Shown one piece after another: positions 2,500 to 11,964 of a DNA stretch of 15,639 nt. The first letter of the stretch is position 1; every line of letters starts with the position of its first letter. The notes beneath the pieces were generated by a model. The model was not told the origin of the DNA. It made no database searches and saw nothing but the letters and a program-made list of their open reading frames with translations. This stretch comes from Candidatus Undinarchaeales archaeon (lineage in GTDB: Archaea > SpSt-1190 > JASMDC01). The position numbers were made by a program, and so were the translations under genes. The stretch lies in the NCBI GenBank assembly GCA_030753015.1, contig JASMDC010000062.1, forward strand, positions 1 through 15,639. Direction: 5' to 3'.

Positions 2500-3264
2500 A
2501 TGATCGGCGAAGTTGAGGACATCCGCATGCCCTACGAGTTCGACGTCAGCGGCGGCACGTACAGCGTGCTGGGCGCTGTTGGCGAGGCCGTGGCTGCCGA
2601 GGCCGGCCTGGAGAACAACTACGAGGGCGTAGGTACCTACGATACTGCAAGGGGATTCATCTTCCCCGTGACGGGCCCAATGAAGGAGAAGTTCAACGAG
2701 AAGGCAGTGGATATCAAGAAGACCTGCGAGGAGCAGGGCATCCACGCCAAGTTCGACTCGGACCTCATCATCGGCTACCGCCATGCGGCCTTCGATCTCG
2801 TGAAGACCGAGCGGGTGAGCAGCGAGAACACCGGTCCCTACTGGAGCCGGATCACGGAGAAGTACACCATCGATGCCGAGTACGGCAGCCTCCGCGGAAA
2901 GCTCACCGAGAACATCGACGGTCTCGAGGACCTGAGCGGTGTGAAGGCCGTCGTGGACAGCGCTGGCGCTGCGGCCGTTGCCTACGAGCTGCTCGACTCC
3001 TTCGACGGTTACGTCGACCGCCACTCGAACACAGTCGAGGTCTTCGGCCTGGACAGTGACGAGCTATATGGCGAGATCCGAGGGAAGCTCGAAGAGGACG
3101 TGAGCTCGCGTCAGGAGAAGATCGACAACGACTTCCTCGGCAAGGTCCCCCTGTTCGGCAAGTGGTACAAAGGTCGCCAGGAGACCAAGCTCGAAGATAT
3201 GCGCCTGAACAAGGAGCGTCAGATCAACGTCGTCGAGGCCATCTTCGGCCCCCGTGACGAGTGA
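2500..3264 (+). CDS. Unrecognised 254-residue cytoplasmic protein
   Basis: I do not recognise this family. The protein has no signal peptide or membrane segment, only one cysteine (in the KKTCEEQ stretch) and a mixed alpha/beta look. Acidic residues are abundant. The N-terminal half (about 10-125) has strand-like stretches around GGTYSVLGAVGEAV and ARGFIFPVTGPM. The C-terminal third (about 190-254) is highly charged and helical (DELYGEIRGKLEEDVSSRQEK), broken by a short FLGKVPLFGKWYKG loop. The start at 2500 follows an AGGT motif. An alternative ATG at 2527 would shorten it by 9 residues. Codon usage is GC-rich like its neighbours, and the clear promoter and long frame support a real gene. 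It is transcribed alone and converges on the surface-protein operon. The sequence gives no ground for a function. Confidence 0.75.
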   Translation: MIGEVEDIRMPYEFDVSGGTYSVLGAVGEAVAAEAGLENNYEGVGTYDTARGFIFPVTGPMKEKFNEKAVDIKKTCEEQGIHAKFDSDLIIGYRHAAFDLVKTERVSSENTGPYWSRITEKYTIDAEYGSLRGKLTENIDGLEDLSGVKAVVDSAGAAAVAYELLDSFDGYVDRHSNTVEVFGLDSDELYGEIRGKLEEDVSSRQEKIDNDFLGKVPLFGKWYKGRQETKLEDMRLNKERQINVVEAIFGPRDE

Positions 3265-3343: not shown

Positions 3344-6067
3344 CTAGCACACGATGGCGGTGTCGGACCACGCACCGGGGTTCCCTTGGACCGTGATATA
3401 GATACGGTCACGGACGGTCACACCCTCGGACGTCACGGACACCTCGACCGGCACGGGATCACCGGGACGGGGCGCGTCAGGGCAAAGCTTCACACGTGAC
3501 AGGTGGAGCCGCACACCTGAGGGCGTCGACATGATGTACGCCAGCGACGACGTCACGTCCCGCTCGCCGATGCTCACCTTGAAGTCCTCCTCCCTCACCA
3601 GATCGGCCCCCTCCAGGTCGACATGGATGTCCATGTTGAACCCGATGCCCAGGAGGATGGAATAGAGCGGATTGTCACCGGTGCCCGGCCTGATGCGGCT
3701 CATCTCCAACGACAGCGGCAGGTGCTCGACGACCGAGAGGGGGCTAGACGCAGATGCTTTGCGGCCGAGCGAGTCGATCTTGAGGGTGAGCTTGTCCGCG
3801 GCGACCTTGCCTTCGAGCGTGCCCACCACGCGCCACCGCTTGCTCGCTGGCTCGAACTGGGCGGATAGGGAGCGCGCCTTGACGGCACCGAAACTGAGGA
3901 TGAAGTCCTCGGTGGCGAGGTCCGTGACAGGCTCTCCCTCGTCGTCCCGCACTTCAGCGAGCACCCGGACAGCGGTACCGATGCGCAGGCTCTCCAGGCT
4001 CACCATCTGTGGCGTGAGCACGTTAATGGACACGTTCAAGCCACGTTCGTCGACCGGAACGTGTAGCGCGAAAGGCCGGCGGACCACGTGTACCGTATCG
4101 TTCTCGTATCTGATGATGAGGAACAGGGTTGAGTGACCGGGAGGGAGAGTGTCGGTGAACCTCGCCCAGAACTGCCAGCCCTTGTCAAGCGACATGTGCT
4201 CGAAGCCCGTCTCCTCGGCCTTGAGGGAGCCGAGCTTGGCCGTGATATTGATGTCGCGGGTGGCCATCCTTCCCAAGAACCGGTCGCCACGCTTCAGGAA
4301 ACCGGTCCAGGTGACCTTGATACCGTCCTCGAGCTCGTCAACACCGGCATGTCCCGGTGTCATCCCGTCGAGCCGGAGCACGATGCCGGCGTCCTCGCAG
4401 CCGGCGGGAGCGCACACATCGCCCGTATTGCATGGCGAGAGGGGGACGTTGTTCTCGTCAAGGCAGACGCAATTGCCGAAGCACACCTCGCCCTGGCCTA
4501 TGCAGGGGAGGGTCGTGATGCCTCGTCTGGCGCGGCAGCGGGACTGCTCGAACACGATGGTGTAGGGCGAGTCGGGTCCGCCCGTACACCCGTCCGCTGC
4601 GCACCGCTGACCGAACGAGCATACGTGGGCTGGATCCCCCCCCTCGTCGAAGCAAAGGCACACGGGGATGTCGCTCGAGGTCGGTACGCACACGTCACCC
4701 TCGGCGATGCATGCGATGGAGTCGTCCTCCACAGCGAGGCTGCCCCGCGGGCAGAGCGCTGACCTGCGTGATGCTGGTTGCCATTCGGTCACATGGATTG
4801 CCCGGGAGGCCACGGCGACCACGCCCTCGTCATCGTACACCTTCGTCCTGACAACGTAGTCCCCCGGGGGAGTGTCCGGTGTGACGGGGATGACCGTTCC
4901 GTCGAGACCGTTCACCTCCTGGCTGTCAACGCTCTCGCCCGAGGTGTCCACGAGCTCCGTGACGGTGCGCTCCTTACCGGTCGCGCCCGGTACATCTATC
5001 GACGGACGGATCTCCTCGCCGGGCCCGTAGGTCTGCTTCTCCAGGGCGAGCTCGGCATCCATGAGCCCGGTGTCCTCGAGCACGACACGTATCGAGGCCA
5101 CACCGGAGACGCGTTCGGCGAACCCGCGGAGCCGGACAACGTACTCGCCGGGCTCCCAGGACGGCTGCGTGCCGAGCATCACGGTGTCGCACGCCGCGTA
5201 CGTCACCGCGTCGACGGACACCCCGTGCCGGTCGAGGATGTGGACGGAGCATCCGGTGAGCTCTTTGGAGGACGTCACGGTGAGGTTGATCGGCTCACCC
5301 AGGGCTGCACGGTCTTCCTTGAGCCGTAGGGCAAGGTCAAGTTCGGCCGCGCGGAACCGTGTGGGGAACTTGGCAACGTAGGCTATCTTGGGCTCAAGGC
5401 GCGCGATGGTCAGGGTGTGGGTACCGGGTTGGAGCTCCGCGGGGAGGGTCAGTGTGTGGTTCGAGCATCGGTAGGTCGTCAGTTTACCCTCGCCCTCCAC
5501 CATGTCCACGTGGGCCGCACAGAGCCGGCCTCCAAGTCGAGGGAGCGGGATGGCCTCACCGAGGGTGTACTCGTTCTTGTGCAGGCTGATCCCGAGAGGT
5601 CGGCGCTCGAGGCGAGTTGTGAAGGAAGTACGATAAGGGATACCCCGCACGCTACTGAAGGATGTCGTATGGCTCGGATAGAGGATCGAGAGCGAGCGCG
5701 AGCCTGTCCGCAGGCCGTCGCAAAGGACGAACTGGAGCGGAGTGTACTCCAGCAGGAGGTCAGCTACCACTTCGTTCTCGCCGATGTCCAGCGAGCGCAC
5801 ATCCAACCGGGGGTACGACAGTACGGAGAACACCACGGCGGTGCTCTCCAATGAGGCCGTGCACTCAAGGACGCCCGAGAGGGTCGCGCAGCGTGTCCGG
5901 AGATCTGCCTCGGTGAGCCCACGGACCTGATCGGGGGATAGCGCATACCGCACTGTCGTGGTCAGCAGCCCCAGGGAGGTCGCGTCCACCTTCTCGACGA
6001 TCTCGTTGACAGCGGAACCTAGGAGCAACAGGAGGCTCAGGAGGAGGACCGCCGCCCGGCGGCTCAT
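3344..6067 (-). CDS. Secreted multidomain protein with two eight-cysteine modules (907 residues, paralogue of the 921-residue protein)
   Basis: Last gene of the operon. The start is the ATG at 6067, which overlaps the upstream stop as ATGA and has the ribosome binding site GGAGGGAG (6073-6080). A Sec-type signal peptide (MSRRAAVLLLSLLLLLGSA) follows directly. The mature chain is beta-rich. After an N-terminal domain come two Ig/MG2-like units with the pattern 'Y.pGE.i ... PG.YVVR' (about 240-430). Eight-cysteine modules lie at 439-494 and 511-557, and further beta domains run to the C-terminus. The chain ends ..GNPGAWSDTAIVC, with cysteine as the last residue and no membrane segment. It is colinear with the 921-residue protein throughout, including cysteine spacing and the ..VKLCPD..P.. 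and GNPG.W motifs. The role is inferred to be a surface or extracellular structural component, held by disulfides or partner proteins. No enzyme motif was seen. Confidence 0.85.
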   Translation of the reverse strand: MSRRAAVLLLSLLLLLGSAVNEIVEKVDATSLGLLTTTVRYALSPDQVRGLTEADLRTRCATLSGVLECTASLESTAVVFSVLSYPRLDVRSLDIGENEVVADLLLEYTPLQFVLCDGLRTGSRSLSILYPSHTTSFSSVRGIPYRTSFTTRLERRPLGISLHKNEYTLGEAIPLPRLGGRLCAAHVDMVEGEGKLTTYRCSNHTLTLPAELQPGTHTLTIARLEPKIAYVAKFPTRFRAAELDLALRLKEDRAALGEPINLTVTSSKELTGCSVHILDRHGVSVDAVTYAACDTVMLGTQPSWEPGEYVVRLRGFAERVSGVASIRVVLEDTGLMDAELALEKQTYGPGEEIRPSIDVPGATGKERTVTELVDTSGESVDSQEVNGLDGTVIPVTPDTPPGDYVVRTKVYDDEGVVAVASRAIHVTEWQPASRRSALCPRGSLAVEDDSIACIAEGDVCVPTSSDIPVCLCFDEGGDPAHVCSFGQRCAADGCTGGPDSPYTIVFEQSRCRARRGITTLPCIGQGEVCFGNCVCLDENNVPLSPCNTGDVCAPAGCEDAGIVLRLDGMTPGHAGVDELEDGIKVTWTGFLKRGDRFLGRMATRDINITAKLGSLKAEETGFEHMSLDKGWQFWARFTDTLPPGHSTLFLIIRYENDTVHVVRRPFALHVPVDERGLNVSINVLTPQMVSLESLRIGTAVRVLAEVRDDEGEPVTDLATEDFILSFGAVKARSLSAQFEPASKRWRVVGTLEGKVAADKLTLKIDSLGRKASASSPLSVVEHLPLSLEMSRIRPGTGDNPLYSILLGIGFNMDIHVDLEGADLVREEDFKVSIGERDVTSSLAYIMSTPSGVRLHLSRVKLCPDAPRPGDPVPVEVSVTSEGVTVRDRIYITVQGNPGAWSDTAIVC

Positions 6068-7053
6068 CCCGACTCCCTCCGGCACGCCTCCTTGAGCGTG
6101 CGGTCGAGGGTCACCCGGTTGACCGCCCCCACCCGTACCTTGGCGAGAGCGCCCTTGTCCTCGAGGTCGCTCAGGAGCCGCGAGAGCTTCGACTTGGAGA
6201 ACCCGAGGGCCCTGCACAGATCGTTCTGGTTCATGGGAGCGTCATGCTTGGCCAGCTCACAGACGACGATGCGCTCGTCCAGGGAGAAGCCGGCGAGCAC
6301 CGAGGGCCTAGCCTGGAGGTGGACGAGCAGGGCGTAGCCGAAGGCACCTGTGATGATGCCGGCAACGAGGATGGACACGCCATCAGCGGAGCTCCCGCTG
6401 TCCGGTGCAGGGGCCGGAGGCCGCTTGGCACGCACGAAGATGTCCATGGTCTCACCCTTGTCGAGAGGACCCTGGTCCCAGCGGAGGATGAGATGCTTGC
6501 CGTCGGTCTCGAGCCGGGCGGCCGGTACGACCACCGATGCCACCTGTGTGACGTTCTCTGCTATGGGAAGGACGTAACCGGGAGGGAGGTCGACCCGCGC
6601 CTTGAAGTCGGCGATGGGCCACGCGGCCTTGTAGGTGGTACGCAACTCCAGCTCGTCGCCCACGACACGCGTGAACTGTGCGGTGTCGAACCGGATCATG
6701 TACGCGGCCTGTTCGCCCGGCGGTACGGGCTCGTCGAACGCGATGATGATGATCCGCGCCCAGTTCGCCTCGCGCTCGGTGACGCTCACTGGACGTGAGC
6801 CGGTCACGGTGAGGTTCGCGATGTCCTTGCCCACGGTGAACGACACCTTCTCCAGCGGTTCTGTGCCGTTGTTCACGAAGGCGGCGTCGATACGTTCCCG
6901 ACATGTACCGTCGGCATGCACGTAGAGCGACAGCTCGTAGGTGCGATAATCGAGCGAGGGAGGCAGGCCGGCCCCGGGGATGGCTACCAGCGAAAGTGTG
7001 ATGGCGAGGATGCCCAGCGTGCGCCACGCCGCGTACCTATCCATGGGCATCAT
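6064..7053 (-). CDS. Membrane-tethered winged-helix transcription regulator
   Basis: A 329-residue protein with four visible parts. A signal peptide comes first (about 1-30, ILAITLSLVAIPGAG). An extracytoplasmic beta-sandwich domain covers about 35-210 and carries NGT and NVT glycosylation sequons. One membrane helix follows (about 225-246, ILVAGIITGAFGYALLV). Last is a cytoplasmic winged helix (about 258-318, MNQNDLCRALGFSKSKLSRL..LEDKGALAKVRVG). The order matches archaeal one-component regulators with an external sensor domain and an internal MarR/TrmB-like DNA-binding domain. I chose the ATG at 7053, which overlaps the upstream stop as ATGA, over a GTG at 7062. Its place between the pilin-anchored and last secreted genes suggests it senses the state of the surface assembly and controls the same operon. 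This is inference. No DNA target was identified. Confidence 0.85.
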   Translation of the reverse strand: MMPMDRYAAWRTLGILAITLSLVAIPGAGLPPSLDYRTYELSLYVHADGTCRERIDAAFVNNGTEPLEKVSFTVGKDIANLTVTGSRPVSVTEREANWARIIIIAFDEPVPPGEQAAYMIRFDTAQFTRVVGDELELRTTYKAAWPIADFKARVDLPPGYVLPIAENVTQVASVVVPAARLETDGKHLILRWDQGPLDKGETMDIFVRAKRPPAPAPDSGSSADGVSILVAGIITGAFGYALLVHLQARPSVLAGFSLDERIVVCELAKHDAPMNQNDLCRALGFSKSKLSRLLSDLEDKGALAKVRVGAVNRVTLDRTLKEACRRESG

Positions 7054-8873
7054 CCCGTGCACTCAGAGCGGGCGCTGACGTGCTCTATCTTGCCGCCGAC
7101 CTTCTCGATGAGGAGCGGTTTCATCTCGATATCAAGTGTGGTGGATTTCTCGACATCGATGATGAGGACCCGGGCCGAGACCTTGTACTGGGGGCGGCCG
7201 AGATCGTCCTCGGACGGCACGGTGAGGACTATGTACCGCCCAGGGTTGAGCTGGGGCGTGGTGTACTTCCCATCACGGTCCACTCCCACTTTCACGATGG
7301 GTCCAAGGTCATCGTGGACCGGCTTGAACAGGATGGTGACGTACCGGGCCGGATTGCCGTCGATGTGGCCGAGCGTGTCCTCACCCATTTCCACGACCTT
7401 ACCGGTGTTGGTGCAGAAGATACGCTTCTTCATGAACACCTTCCCGGTCAGTACCGCGTAGTCCTTGAGCGAGATGGTGGTGCTGAACTGGCGGTCGATC
7501 TTCACCTTATCCACATGCTTGGAGAGCCCCACCGGATCGTTGGACACGACGATGAGGTCCTGTACCTTGCAGGGAACGCCTGCCTGTTTGAGGTGGCTGT
7601 CCATGTAGGAGTAGGAGCATGCGCCGATGTAGATGGTCCCCGCGTTGGAGTTCTTGACGGTGATGTCCACATCGCAAGCGCCTCGGCAAAGATCGTCGAC
7701 GGTGGCGGGATCCATCACGCTCTCATCGGTGGCATTGGTCTGTTCTCCGACCAGCAGCGGTTGGATATAGAACCTGAACTCCAGCGGTCGCTGGCCCTCG
7801 GCACCCTCGCCGCCGATGATGAAGGAGCTCTCGTGGATGTCCCGGAGAGTCCACCGCACCGGGAACTGGGCGGAGTACGATACGGTGTATCGGGACGGGC
7901 ACAACCGCGGCTCCGCGCGCCGGTCCATCAGCGGCATCTCGAAGGGCACGTAATAGATAACTTCCGTGCTCTCCCATGTCTTGTCCAGGTAGTCGGCGTC
8001 CTTGTTGGCGATGAAAGTGAAGTTGACGTCCCTGACGTTGAGGTCAGCCGCCCACTCGACGTACTGCTCGCCGCGGAACAGCTCCTTGACCCGCTTGAGC
8101 TCCCGGGCCACGGAGAGCTGGGTGTTCTCGCGCATGGGCGAGATGATCTGCTTGCGGTAGGCGTACACCGTCTGGCTGTCGCAGTCCACGTTGCGCGAGA
8201 TCATCCCCGGCGGTGTGGGGAGTCGCTGGTCCTGGATGATACCATTGAGCAGAGCCTTCTCCATCATACGTTCCTCTGTGTAGTTCTGGATGTAACGCTC
8301 GGCGAGGTCGCGCAGGTACTTGATGCGCAAGGGGAGCTGATTGGAGTACGTGACCGATGTGCGAGCCTCACGCTCGTCGGCTATCAGGCCGATGGGGACG
8401 GACACCTCGGTCTCCACGGCATGGTCATGGAGCTTGACCTTCGCCTTGGGGTACCCGATGGCGAACAGGTCGGTCCTGACCTGGGAGCGGAGGACGTCGA
8501 GCTTTTTACCGAGCCGACGTTCGATCTCGTCGACGAGCATCTCCTCCATCACTTTGGCCGTGGGGATGCTCACGATGCGCCCGCGGTAGTACCAGTGGGG
8601 GATGCCCAGGTGGTTGAGCAACGGTGCGTTCTCTGCTGTATATCCGCCATGACGGCCCATCTCGTCCACTGACTCGTAGATCGAATCGATGAAGAGCGCC
8701 TCTACCGAGCTCTCGAGCTTCACCAGCTCGTCCTTGACCTCGACGGACTCGATCTCCTGGATGTTGAGCTCGCGTGTCTGCTGCTCTCCCGAGAGGATGA
8801 GGTAGAGTACGGCGATGACGACGATGGCGATGGCCGCCAGTGCCATGAGGTTCATCTGACCGCGTCGCGCCAT
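7050..8873 (-). CDS. Prepilin-type anchored surface protein, 607 residues
   Basis: The N-terminus reads MARRGQMNLMALAAIAIVVI. A short basic stretch, a Gly-Gln junction (RRG^Q) and a hydrophobic helix (about 8-28) form the class III signal peptide cut by archaeal prepilin peptidases. The long ectodomain begins with a segment resembling proteins I recall from DPANN archaea. In it a charged helix precedes 'MGRHGGY', then 'IPHWYYRGRIVSIP' and 'V.V.VPIGLI'. A carboxypeptidase-regulatory or transthyretin-like beta domain lies near residues 475-575. Several cysteines (e.g. CRGACD, GACSYS) are spread through 395-500. The start codon overlaps the stop of the 921-residue gene (TGATG), with a perfect GGAGGT ribosome binding site at 8882-8887. 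Ordinary pilins are far smaller, so this is probably an anchor or tip protein rather than a fibre subunit. Its partners are likely the two flanking secreted proteins. Confidence 0.82.
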   Translation of the reverse strand: MARRGQMNLMALAAIAIVVIAVLYLILSGEQQTRELNIQEIESVEVKDELVKLESSVEALFIDSIYESVDEMGRHGGYTAENAPLLNHLGIPHWYYRGRIVSIPTAKVMEEMLVDEIERRLGKKLDVLRSQVRTDLFAIGYPKAKVKLHDHAVETEVSVPIGLIADEREARTSVTYSNQLPLRIKYLRDLAERYIQNYTEERMMEKALLNGIIQDQRLPTPPGMISRNVDCDSQTVYAYRKQIISPMRENTQLSVARELKRVKELFRGEQYVEWAADLNVRDVNFTFIANKDADYLDKTWESTEVIYYVPFEMPLMDRRAEPRLCPSRYTVSYSAQFPVRWTLRDIHESSFIIGGEGAEGQRPLEFRFYIQPLLVGEQTNATDESVMDPATVDDLCRGACDVDITVKNSNAGTIYIGACSYSYMDSHLKQAGVPCKVQDLIVVSNDPVGLSKHVDKVKIDRQFSTTISLKDYAVLTGKVFMKKRIFCTNTGKVVEMGEDTLGHIDGNPARYVTILFKPVHDDLGPIVKVGVDRDGKYTTPQLNPGRYIVLTVPSEDDLGRPQYKVSARVLIIDVEKSTTLDIEMKPLLIEKVGGKIEHVSARSECTG

Positions 8874-11638
8874 CAGCAGGAACCTCCCTTCATGTTCCGC
8901 CAGTTGCCCGGATTGCCGTGGAGGCGGATGGTGGTCGTGTCCTCTGCCGTCTTACCGCCCACCTCGACACCCACGCTGACCATAAGGTCGGAGTTGGGCA
9001 TCGGCGGGTCGGGACAGAGCTTTACCTCGGAGAGGTGGATGCGGATCCCCTCTGCGGTGGAGACGAGATAGGCGATATCGTCGGAGACGTCGTGCTTGCC
9101 GATCTTGACCGAGAGGTTCTCCTTGCGCACGGACATGGCGCCCTCGATGGACGTGAATATGTCCATGTCGAAGCCCATAGTGGCGAAGAGATAGAAGAGC
9201 GGCTTGTCCTTGGTCCCCGGCGTGGTGCGGGCGATGCGGATGGCGAGCGGCACCTGGTCGACGACCTCGAACTGCTCACTTGTCCTGCCCTCGCGTCCCA
9301 GGGACGAGACGCCCAAGGTGATCGAGTCGGAGCGCTGGACCGTGGCGTTGCGGAAGTTGGCGATGATGGTCCACAGCTCGGAGGTGCGGTCGTAGGTGGT
9401 GGCCACCGAGTAGGCGATGAGCTGGCCCGTGGTCACCGAGAACGCCTCGGGCGGGAGATGTGGCAGCTCTTCCTCGTTGGCGTTCACGATCTTGGCCGTG
9501 AGCTCCACGGTGCCGCCCTTCTGGAGAGTGCCGATGCTCATGGACGCAGGTGTCACCTCGGTGAGCTTGACACCCATGTCCTTCATATCCTCGGGATGCC
9601 ACACCTCGAAAGGCTTGCGTATGACGTGGACGTCACCGCGGTAGCCAACGATGAGGAACAGCTCGTGCTCACCAGGATTGAGACTGCCGGTGAAGCGAGA
9701 CGTGACCTGCCAACCCTCCTCGGGAGAGACATAGATCATGTCGATGGACTCGGCGTCCAGGTTCCCCAGCGAGGCTTCGATGGTTATGTCGGCCCGGTCG
9801 GCGGTGACGAGCTGGTTCTCCACCTGGCCCGTGCGGTAGGAGATGCGGCCCGTGGCTACCAGGTCGAACCCGGCCTCGAGCTCGTTCACGCGGATGCTCT
9901 TGGTGTAGTCTTTATCCTCGATACCCATCTCGAGCCGGAGGTCCTGGCATCCGGAGTGGGTGCACGTCTGGCCAAGCGAACAGGACGAGACAGGCCTGCT
10001 CTCCTTGTCGAGACATACGCATGTCCCAGTGCAGATCTCGCCCAGCTCGACGCAGGAGACTGTCTCGAGCCCGCGTTTAGCCAGGCAGAGGCCGCCCTCG
10101 CGGACGACGATGTAGGCGCTCTCGACGGCCCGTTCGGTACAGCCGTCCTTCGAGCAGCGGTAGCCGAACTCGCAGGCGTCCACCAGGTCGCCCGGATCGT
10201 TGAAGCATAGGCAAGAGGGCACCGACGTGGACGACGGGATGCACACGTCACCCTCAGTGACGCAGGGCAGCTTGAACGTGTCGATGTACATGTAACCGCC
10301 GCGGCAGAGCTCAGCGCGTGGCGAGCGGACCGGGGGCCGCCACTCGTGGATCTCGATCCCGCGGGACGAGACGGCGGTGAGGTCGCCCCCGCTATACACC
10401 TTGGTACGGACGATGTAGCTGCCGTTGGTGAGCGATTCGTCGCTCTCGATCTCGGCGTACCCGCACCCGGGCGCATCGGACTCGCCGACCTTGGTGTTCT
10501 CCTCGTCGAAGAGCTCGAGATCGCAGTAGTCGCCCTGGGCCTCGGTGTACACGCCGATGGTGTCACCGGCCACGTAGCTCTCCTTGTCGGTCTTGGTCTC
10601 GGCGGGAGCGTACCCCCGACCACGGAGGTCGATCGAGAAGGACGCCTGGCCCTTGACCGAGCCAACGAAACCCTCGATGCGCACCAGATACTTGCCCGGT
10701 GTCCAGGCGGTCTGTGTGCCGAGGGGGATGGAAGTGCACTTCCGCAGGGTCATGGTGTCCACACGGATGCCATTCATGTCCAGGATCGAGACGACACATC
10801 CCTCGAGCGCGGGCTCGGAGGAGACCTCGATCATGACCTCATCACCGAGGTTCACGGATGTCACCGATGGCTTTGCCTGGATGAGCAGCTGGGGCCTGGT
10901 GAGCTTGACAGGGATGCGGGCCACCGCCACACCGGCCTTTCGCACTGCCATGACGTACAGGTCGTAGTCACCCTCGGCAACGAACGCGTCCGTTCCCAGG
11001 GAGAACGTCTCGCACCCCACGGAGCTGTCCATCAGGAGAGCACGCTCGTCCTGGGCGAGGGCGGCGACGCACAACTTCCCCTCCATGTGGGGGATGGGAA
11101 GGGCCTGGCCGACCTCAAAGGTGGTGTTCTCCATCTCCAGGGTCGTGTGCTCCGGGGTACCGGACAGCGAGAACGATGCGCCGAAGGGGCGCGCGAGCAC
11201 GTCAGTGACGATTGTCATGTGGGTTGGGTACTTGATCTTGAGCTCGCGGCGCTTGACCCAGATGCCGCTCATGAGGGAGAACTGCTTGGGCTCATAGCTC
11301 ACGAAGAGGTCCACCCTGACACGTTCGTCCCCGACCTCGAAACTCTCGACCTTGAGGTCGATGCTCTCGATCATGGAGAACGAGACGGTGCCCGAGTCCA
11401 CCATGATGGACGGGCTGCACGAGCTCACCGAGGAGAGCACCGAGCACCGGCCAGCGATGGCCGACTCCGAGAGCGTCGCTACATAGTAGGGAGGGAGCTT
11501 GTAGGCGATGGAGATGCTGGCCAGCTGGAGGTTGGAGACGTCGACCGTCTCGATAGCACTCTCCGCCTCGAGCCCGACCGCTGGAGAGAGGAGAAGTGAG
11601 ACGAATAAGACCGCTACAATGCGTGAGAGAAGCCGCAT
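8873..11638 (-). CDS. Secreted multidomain protein with two eight-cysteine modules (921 residues), first operon gene
   Basis: The start is the ATG at 11638, placed just after AGGAGGA. A TTG further upstream would include the ribosome binding site in the protein and was rejected. A signal peptide (MRLLSRIVAVLFVSLLLSPA, cleavage near GLEAES) is followed by a beta-rich N-terminal domain. MG2/Ig-like units come next, with 'G.YLVRI' and 'YVAGDTI...GSYIVRTK' signatures (about 255-435). Cysteine modules lie at 445-500 and 518-564. More beta domains follow, ending in ..GNPGNWRNMKGGSC. No membrane segment follows the signal peptide. Cysteine is the final residue, as in its 907-residue paralogue. The last codons (GGA GGT) also serve as the ribosome binding site of the next gene. 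It is likely an extracellular structural subunit. The enzymatic role is unknown and none is suggested by motifs. Confidence 0.87.
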   Translation of the reverse strand: MRLLSRIVAVLFVSLLLSPAVGLEAESAIETVDVSNLQLASISIAYKLPPYYVATLSESAIAGRCSVLSSVSSCSPSIMVDSGTVSFSMIESIDLKVESFEVGDERVRVDLFVSYEPKQFSLMSGIWVKRRELKIKYPTHMTIVTDVLARPFGASFSLSGTPEHTTLEMENTTFEVGQALPIPHMEGKLCVAALAQDERALLMDSSVGCETFSLGTDAFVAEGDYDLYVMAVRKAGVAVARIPVKLTRPQLLIQAKPSVTSVNLGDEVMIEVSSEPALEGCVVSILDMNGIRVDTMTLRKCTSIPLGTQTAWTPGKYLVRIEGFVGSVKGQASFSIDLRGRGYAPAETKTDKESYVAGDTIGVYTEAQGDYCDLELFDEENTKVGESDAPGCGYAEIESDESLTNGSYIVRTKVYSGGDLTAVSSRGIEIHEWRPPVRSPRAELCRGGYMYIDTFKLPCVTEGDVCIPSSTSVPSCLCFNDPGDLVDACEFGYRCSKDGCTERAVESAYIVVREGGLCLAKRGLETVSCVELGEICTGTCVCLDKESRPVSSCSLGQTCTHSGCQDLRLEMGIEDKDYTKSIRVNELEAGFDLVATGRISYRTGQVENQLVTADRADITIEASLGNLDAESIDMIYVSPEEGWQVTSRFTGSLNPGEHELFLIVGYRGDVHVIRKPFEVWHPEDMKDMGVKLTEVTPASMSIGTLQKGGTVELTAKIVNANEEELPHLPPEAFSVTTGQLIAYSVATTYDRTSELWTIIANFRNATVQRSDSITLGVSSLGREGRTSEQFEVVDQVPLAIRIARTTPGTKDKPLFYLFATMGFDMDIFTSIEGAMSVRKENLSVKIGKHDVSDDIAYLVSTAEGIRIHLSEVKLCPDPPMPNSDLMVSVGVEVGGKTAEDTTTIRLHGNPGNWRNMKGGSC

Positions 11639-11658: not shown

Positions 11659-11708
11659 GATGTTACTATTTATATGTTTATATGAAGCAGGGACCCCTAT
11701 TACAGGTG
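11659..11708. promoter_or_regulatory. Shared divergent promoter region
   Basis: A 77-bp gap separates two divergent start codons (11638 minus, 11716 plus). It contains the AT-rich run ACTATTTATATGTTTATATG around 11665-11684. On the minus strand this gives TATA-type sequence about 35-45 nt before the operon ATG, whose ribosome binding site AGGAGGA lies just upstream. On the plus strand the same run lies about 35-50 nt before the small gene, which has AGGTG at 11704-11708. Both genes probably use overlapping TATA boxes, allowing joint control. Confidence 0.5.
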
Positions 11709-11715
11709 CTCACCA

Positions 11716-11964
11716 ATGTCCTCTGAGAAGATCGAGAAGCTGTGCGGCCTCATACTCGGCGACCTGGACTCCGTCCGGTTCGACGTCCATGATATCCACC
11801 TCGCCCTGAGCAACAAGGACCCCAAGAACAAGGAGGACATGGAGGACATGGAGTTCGGCATCGACATCGCCAACCGCCTCCTTAGTGAGATGGGCAAGAT
11901 CCGGGGTGGGCTAAAGCAGATGCAGGACCTCATCAAGGACGTGGGCAAGGGGCCCCAGGTCTAG
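11716..11964 (+). CDS. Small charged helical protein, 82 residues, unrecognised
   Basis: I do not recognise this family. The protein is soluble, without signal peptide or membrane helix, and is predicted largely helical. An N-terminal helix (SSEKIEKLCGLILGDLDSV) is followed by a short acidic linker with repeated EDMEDME. A longer amphipathic helix (IANRLLSEMGKIRGGLKQM, then DLIKDVGKG) completes it. It may form a helical hairpin or coiled-coil dimer. The start is supported by AGGTG 7 nt upstream and by a divergent promoter shared with the surface operon, which hints at linked expression. The frame ends in tandem stops, TAG then TAA. It converges on the large repeat protein with only 35 bp between the stops. 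The function is unknown. Confidence 0.7.
   Translation: MSSEKIEKLCGLILGDLDSVRFDVHDIHLALSNKDPKNKEDMEDMEFGIDIANRLLSEMGKIRGGLKQMQDLIKDVGKGPQV

Follow-up and report, generated by a model that had tools for sequence, protein, structure and literature searches.

The four-gene locus in the window (the whole stretch analysed, 15,639 nucleotides) is one atypical copy of a surface module of two genes that occurs about 19 times in the host genome. The conserved unit is the pair formed by A, which encodes a secreted protein, and ANCH, which encodes a prepilin-type protein; it is not the set of four genes. The window is an entire contig (C76) of an archaeal MAG of 3.85 Mb (98.9% complete, 5% contamination) without close relatives among the genomes examined. 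The cassettes, as we call the A+ANCH loci, are spread over about 15 contigs, and since one of them adjoins an archaeal-type LonB gene, bacterial contamination is an unlikely source. ANCH was absent from the other examined genomes of the phylum (ten in all, including the host), whose sizes of 0.6-1.1 Mb are well below that of the host. Scans with A of other genome contigs and of viral contigs gave no match, as did searches of a phage collection with ANCH and of a plasmid collection with A, leaving a viral or plasmid origin unsupported. A literature search, not exhaustive, found no paper on A-ANCH pairs.

Table. Features of the window operon.
Feature	Positions	Strand	Description
TATA-like box	11667..11683	-	ATATAAACATATAAATA; 5' of A; probable operon promoter
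A	8873..11638	-	921 aa, signal peptide; first gene of operon
ANCH	7050..8873	-	607 aa; MARRG/Q then hydrophobic helix
REG	6064..7053	-	329 aa, signal peptide, ectodomain, one TM, DUF7343 winged helix-turn-helix
B	3344..6067	-	907 aa, signal peptide; intact A-type paralogue without its own ANCH

The four open reading frames lie on the minus strand and overlap at three junctions, as a sequence-only reading of the window had described: TGATG at 8875-8871 (A/ANCH), ATGA at 7053-7050 (ANCH/REG) and ATGA at 6067-6064 (REG/B). The second overlap is less certain, because REG has alternative starts at 7062, 7050 and 7044. A, ANCH and B each have a GGAGG-like stretch in front of them; together with the TATA-like box (0 of 200 shuffles), these make A a plausible first gene. 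The operon is bounded by plus-strand ORFs at 11716-11964 and 2500-3264, so that one transcript for all four genes is possible. The same reading was right that the products make up a secreted, pilin-anchored surface unit with a membrane-spanning winged-helix regulator, and that two large cysteine-bearing paralogues are present (A and B share 35% identity from end to end, and their cysteines are conserved). The anchor, however, was called a giant, and ANCH has only 607 residues. Elsewhere in the window, all on the minus strand, are a frameshift-broken tyrosine recombinase (912-1991; N-terminal SAM-like domain 1350-1991, catalytic part 912-1310), a ParE-type toxin ORF with an antitoxin-like ORF upstream (370-849; toxin 370-624), and a CGDG-repeat surface protein with one transmembrane segment and two similar repeats beyond it, cut by the contig end (12000-15638).

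Searches with A, ANCH and REG, followed by reading of the surroundings, recovered 19 A+ANCH pairs in the genome. In every one the two genes are adjacent, on one strand and overlapping, in the order A-ANCH in 14 and ANCH-A in 5. Short overlaps also occur in 21 of 102 (about 21%) neighbouring co-directional pairs elsewhere in the genome, by rough ORF calls, so the three overlaps in the window alone mean little; their recurrence in 19 of 19 paralogous pairs, unlike these three, does carry meaning. Overlaps suggest coupling between genes, and the fixed stoichiometry previously read from them goes further than this. The four genes had likewise been taken for a single functional unit, whereas it is A+ANCH that is conserved (19/19), REG and B being optional. 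The expectation of a conserved neighbourhood thus held for A and ANCH, which are not scattered singly, and failed for the full order A-ANCH-REG-B, which was found once only. Distance matrices of A and ANCH were correlated (Mantel r of 0.91 for 18 pairs and 0.81 in a core of the 12 closest; P of 1e-4), and five tight groups are common to both trees. This co-variation is the pattern that would be expected of an obligate pair, with joint duplication contributing too; joint duplication alone may also produce it in adjacent genes whose products never touch. An extra ANCH copy with an in-frame TGA was seen ahead of an intact A-ANCH pair (G000:C39:6724-8525; L038).

The window A is secreted and has tandem Ig/macroglobulin-like domains, two Cys-rich modules and a C-terminal cysteine. 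Relatives in other archaea were weak and matched in the generic Ig-like part alone. A structure model of A, built from A+B, was moderately confident (pLDDT of about 70-83) only at residues about 245-430; residues 162-342 of this partly confident model aligned with the MG domains of complement C5/C3 (Z of 12, rmsd of 4.2, 176 residues), but Ig-like folds match widely. A2M_BRD appeared in B as a sub-threshold Pfam match, and a CGEQ thioester was absent from all 20 A-type proteins. The grappling-hook protein GhpA was also in the Foldseek list, but was rejected as a generic Ig-array match (rmsd >100). With E values of up to 1 allowed, Pfam gave no PilY1-type domain in A or B, and neither Pfam nor NCBIfam matched an archaellin or known S-layer domain in A, ANCH or B. 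The earlier statement that the locus matches no named pilus, archaellum or S-layer operon is supported in that Pfam, NCBIfam and PHROGs assigned A, B and ANCH to no named family. Of the 19 full-length A-type proteins, among them B, 15 have a cysteine within 5 residues of the C-terminus (the exceptions are the A proteins of C117, C32, C38 and C22b), and all 19 ANCH proteins have one within 3 residues, which suggests a putative disulphide link. B is the only intact A-type gene in the genome without an ANCH. Its nearest branch is the A of contig C117 (support 0.96) and not the A beside it, so B is not a local duplicate.

ANCH has a prepilin-type N-terminus (RRG/Q in the window), a GGY motif, a C-terminal Ig-like domain and the cysteine near its end. 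The signal, [KR]G/Q followed by a hydrophobic helix, has G/Q in 16 of the 19 copies, including that of the window; one copy has AQ, one GT and one lacks it. Glu at +5 of the mature protein was found in none of 18 aligned copies, so ANCH was not filed as a major pilin; pilins without Glu at +5 sit at tips (GspK type). A profile of the N-terminal 150 residues retrieved proteins 630-800 aa long from other archaea (the strongest at an E of 5.5e-10), and hhalign matched ANCH to a DPANN family with GQ and GGY motifs over 434 columns (probability 99.6, E of 2.6e-24); the profile comparison for L106 gave an E of 8.5e-21. ANCH is thus a member of a wider, unnamed DPANN (Woesearchaeota-type) family, homologous over about 430 residues. 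One genome carrying this family is a woesearchaeote, and no Pfam family covers these relatives. In all 8 clear cases their genes lie next to one that encodes a secreted protein of 1000 aa or more, and in 7 of these the two genes overlap. A structure model of ANCH, with one distant homologue as its only companion, was unusable (pLDDT of 31).

REG has an ectodomain on the secreted side (DUF2207-like in its relatives), one transmembrane segment near residue 226 and a DUF7343 winged helix at residues 262-319 (Pfam, E of 9.9e-13). It adjoins 5 of the 19 pairs. Outside the window, relatives lie at or close to the cassettes C29b (REG-A-ANCH-giant), C32 (A-ANCH-REG), C39b (divergent) and C36; at C51 and C50 they accompany other secreted giants. 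The closest relative of the window REG is the C29b copy (grouping support 0.87), with the C32 copy joining them less firmly. With REG relatives also next to unrelated secreted proteins, the earlier idea of an assembly that signals its own state to the genome finds no support here. Four of the 11 other REG-like loci are at cassettes (P of about 0.002 if cassettes make up about 5% of the genome, which is an estimate). Being enriched at cassettes yet present at only some, REG is a recurrent but optional partner. A small secreted single-TM family (230-242 aa) lies next to REG at two cassettes (L052:13418-14110 and L037:13696-14424), and related secreted proteins with repeats that, judged by sequence alone, resemble cell-wall-binding type 2 lie near or next to REG-type regulators (L138:8447-9745, L142 and L143).

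Ten cassettes adjoin genes for secreted proteins of about 1100-2800 aa (giants); those without one include the window, C29a, C40 and C32. In nine of these ten giants the C-terminal regions, about 300 residues long or longer, are homologous (weakly so in two) and end in a Cys-rich motif. A profile of this dock domain found at least 20 giants in the host genome, about half of them away from cassettes (about 12 dock-bearing giants are not beside one), and essentially none in 394 other archaea. The dock domain (A8) showed no similarity to the A-type profile. The giants carry M23 (C21, C41, C53 and C20), NlpC/P60 (C46, C20 and C53) and SLT modules (C21, and C41 by alignment), a C-type lectin (C29b), and Kazal, FG-GAP and Ca-binding repeats. 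The position of SLT differs between C21 and C41, which indicates that modules shuffle. Most hydrolase modules have intact catalytic motifs, but a key residue appears to have been lost from M23 in C21 and from NlpC/P60 in C53. Archaea lack murein, and murein hydrolases in the giants therefore point to bacteria as targets; from these domains we infer that the giants may attack bacteria. Giants that combine murein hydrolases (M23, NlpC/P60, SLT) with the common C-terminal domain lie at L151, L153, L156, L043 and L044, and a giant with an embedded ANCH-like segment at L039:5915-13837.

Collectively, we propose that A and ANCH form a duplicated, pilin-anchored surface platform of two proteins, probably serving the dock-bearing giants and sometimes accompanied by a local regulator, a reading to which we assign a probability of about one half. 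ANCH would probably be cut by prepilin peptidase and retained through its N-terminal helix, and A, once secreted, would join it at the cell surface, the two forming an obligate complex. ANCH has a class III-type signal but lacks Glu at +5, and is therefore most likely a tip or priming pilin or a stand-alone membrane anchor and not a filament subunit. In the giants, exchangeable lectin, inhibitor and murein-hydrolase modules precede the common Cys-rich C-terminal domain, which would dock on A/ANCH, perhaps through disulphides, as ANCH and most A proteins end in cysteine. No giant is encoded beside the window copy, where B or giants from other loci would fill the place. REG may be a membrane-fixed one-component regulator that some copies have gained and that probably tunes how strongly its own or nearby surface genes are transcribed.

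It is also conceivable, though we regard it as rather doubtful, that A/ANCH are ordinary parts of a surface coat or adhesin (S-layer-like or a biofilm scaffold) whose expansion provides antigenic or habitat variety, and that the giants, as adhesins and enzymes in their own right, work without them. Tandem Ig/macroglobulin-like domains are a common adhesin build, and about half of the dock giants lie away from cassettes; a prepilin-type anchor with obligate pairing would be unusual for a coat protein, however, and nine cassettes adjoin giants with one homologous C-terminal domain. The four window genes could instead encode a regulated complex complete in itself, with a single ANCH serving both A and B and with REG as the sensor of assembly. 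All four genes overlap, B is intact with its cysteines conserved, A-ANCH-REG recurs at C32 and REG-A-ANCH at C29b, and the three REGs group together, weakly supported. B, however, is present at the window only, 14 of the 19 cassettes have no REG, and REG also occurs next to secreted genes of unrelated kinds; we hold this arrangement to be quite improbable.

The genome also contains machinery of the pilus type: four Peptidase_A24 (prepilin peptidase) and five T2SSE ATPase matches above cut-off, with platform-like neighbours. Cassette C26b lies directly behind two such genes, one for a T2SSE ATPase (with Walker A) and one for a platform-like protein with 10 TM segments; this is the only one of the five T2SSE loci that adjoins a cassette, and weakly suggests pilus-type assembly. 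Alternatively, true type IV pili made by the machinery of C63, C75, C40 or C26 might carry ANCH and A as their tip complex, much as PilY1 and minor pilins form one. Tip pseudopilins lack Glu at +5, as ANCH does, and the class III-type signals and the C26b cassette fit as well. Against this, A has no PilY1 Pfam domain, 18 of 19 cassettes are away from ATPase genes, and pilins with Glu at +5 exist elsewhere in the genome with nothing linking them to cassettes; we consider a true pilus tip unlikely. A bolder extension of the two-protein platform, which we also think unlikely, is a modular contact weapon, in which about 19 pilin-anchored A/ANCH platforms would receive at least 20 giants with one docking domain, bringing attachment lectins and murein hydrolases against bacteria, while membrane-tethered regulators choose the expressed sets.

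Contact with other cells is thought to sustain DPANN-type archaea, and the surface proteins that make this contact are mostly unnamed. The A/ANCH modules look like a large kit of interchangeable cell-surface tools that has so far gone undescribed. The host genome shows them in a repeated modular arrangement tied to a prepilin-like family common with Woesearchaeota, and through this link both become testable. If giants do dock on A/ANCH, the pair would give an archaeon a pilin-anchored platform on which to mount bacteriolytic and binding proteins.

The closest counterpart of ANCH is the DPANN prepilin-like family itself (e.g., Woesearchaeota RIFCSPHIGHO2_02_FULL_28_36, JAGVZW010000003.1), which has the same signal, GGY and C..Y..FPV..D motifs and, like ANCH, adjoins or overlaps a gene for a large secreted protein; its partner, however, is a protein of 1000-2250 aa other than A, and no 19-fold expansion was seen in the loci read. 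REG shares signal peptide, ectodomain, transmembrane segment and C-terminal DUF7343 with other membrane-tethered archaeal winged-helix proteins, and differs from them in being embedded in or beside surface cassettes. The PilY1/minor-pilin tip complex of type IVa pili (PMC7541494) likewise combines a large secreted protein with prepilin-type protein at the presumed surface, but A lacks the PilY1 domain, there is one prepilin and not several, and the pair, whose assembly is putative, is archaeal. The Kil apparatus of Myxococcus, a Tad-like contact-killing machine (PMC8460266), embodies the same idea of pilus-type genes and pilin-like proteins directed against bacteria on contact; the likeness is one of idea, and killing is suggested here solely by the murein-hydrolase domains of the giants. 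Finally, archaeal peptidoglycan hydrolases that kill bacteria have been described as small modular enzymes, and only 12% of genomes encode two or more of them (PMC12352652). As in the host genome, these are secreted murein hydrolases such as M23 in murein-free archaea, but they are small, whereas the host genome encodes at least five dock-bearing giants.
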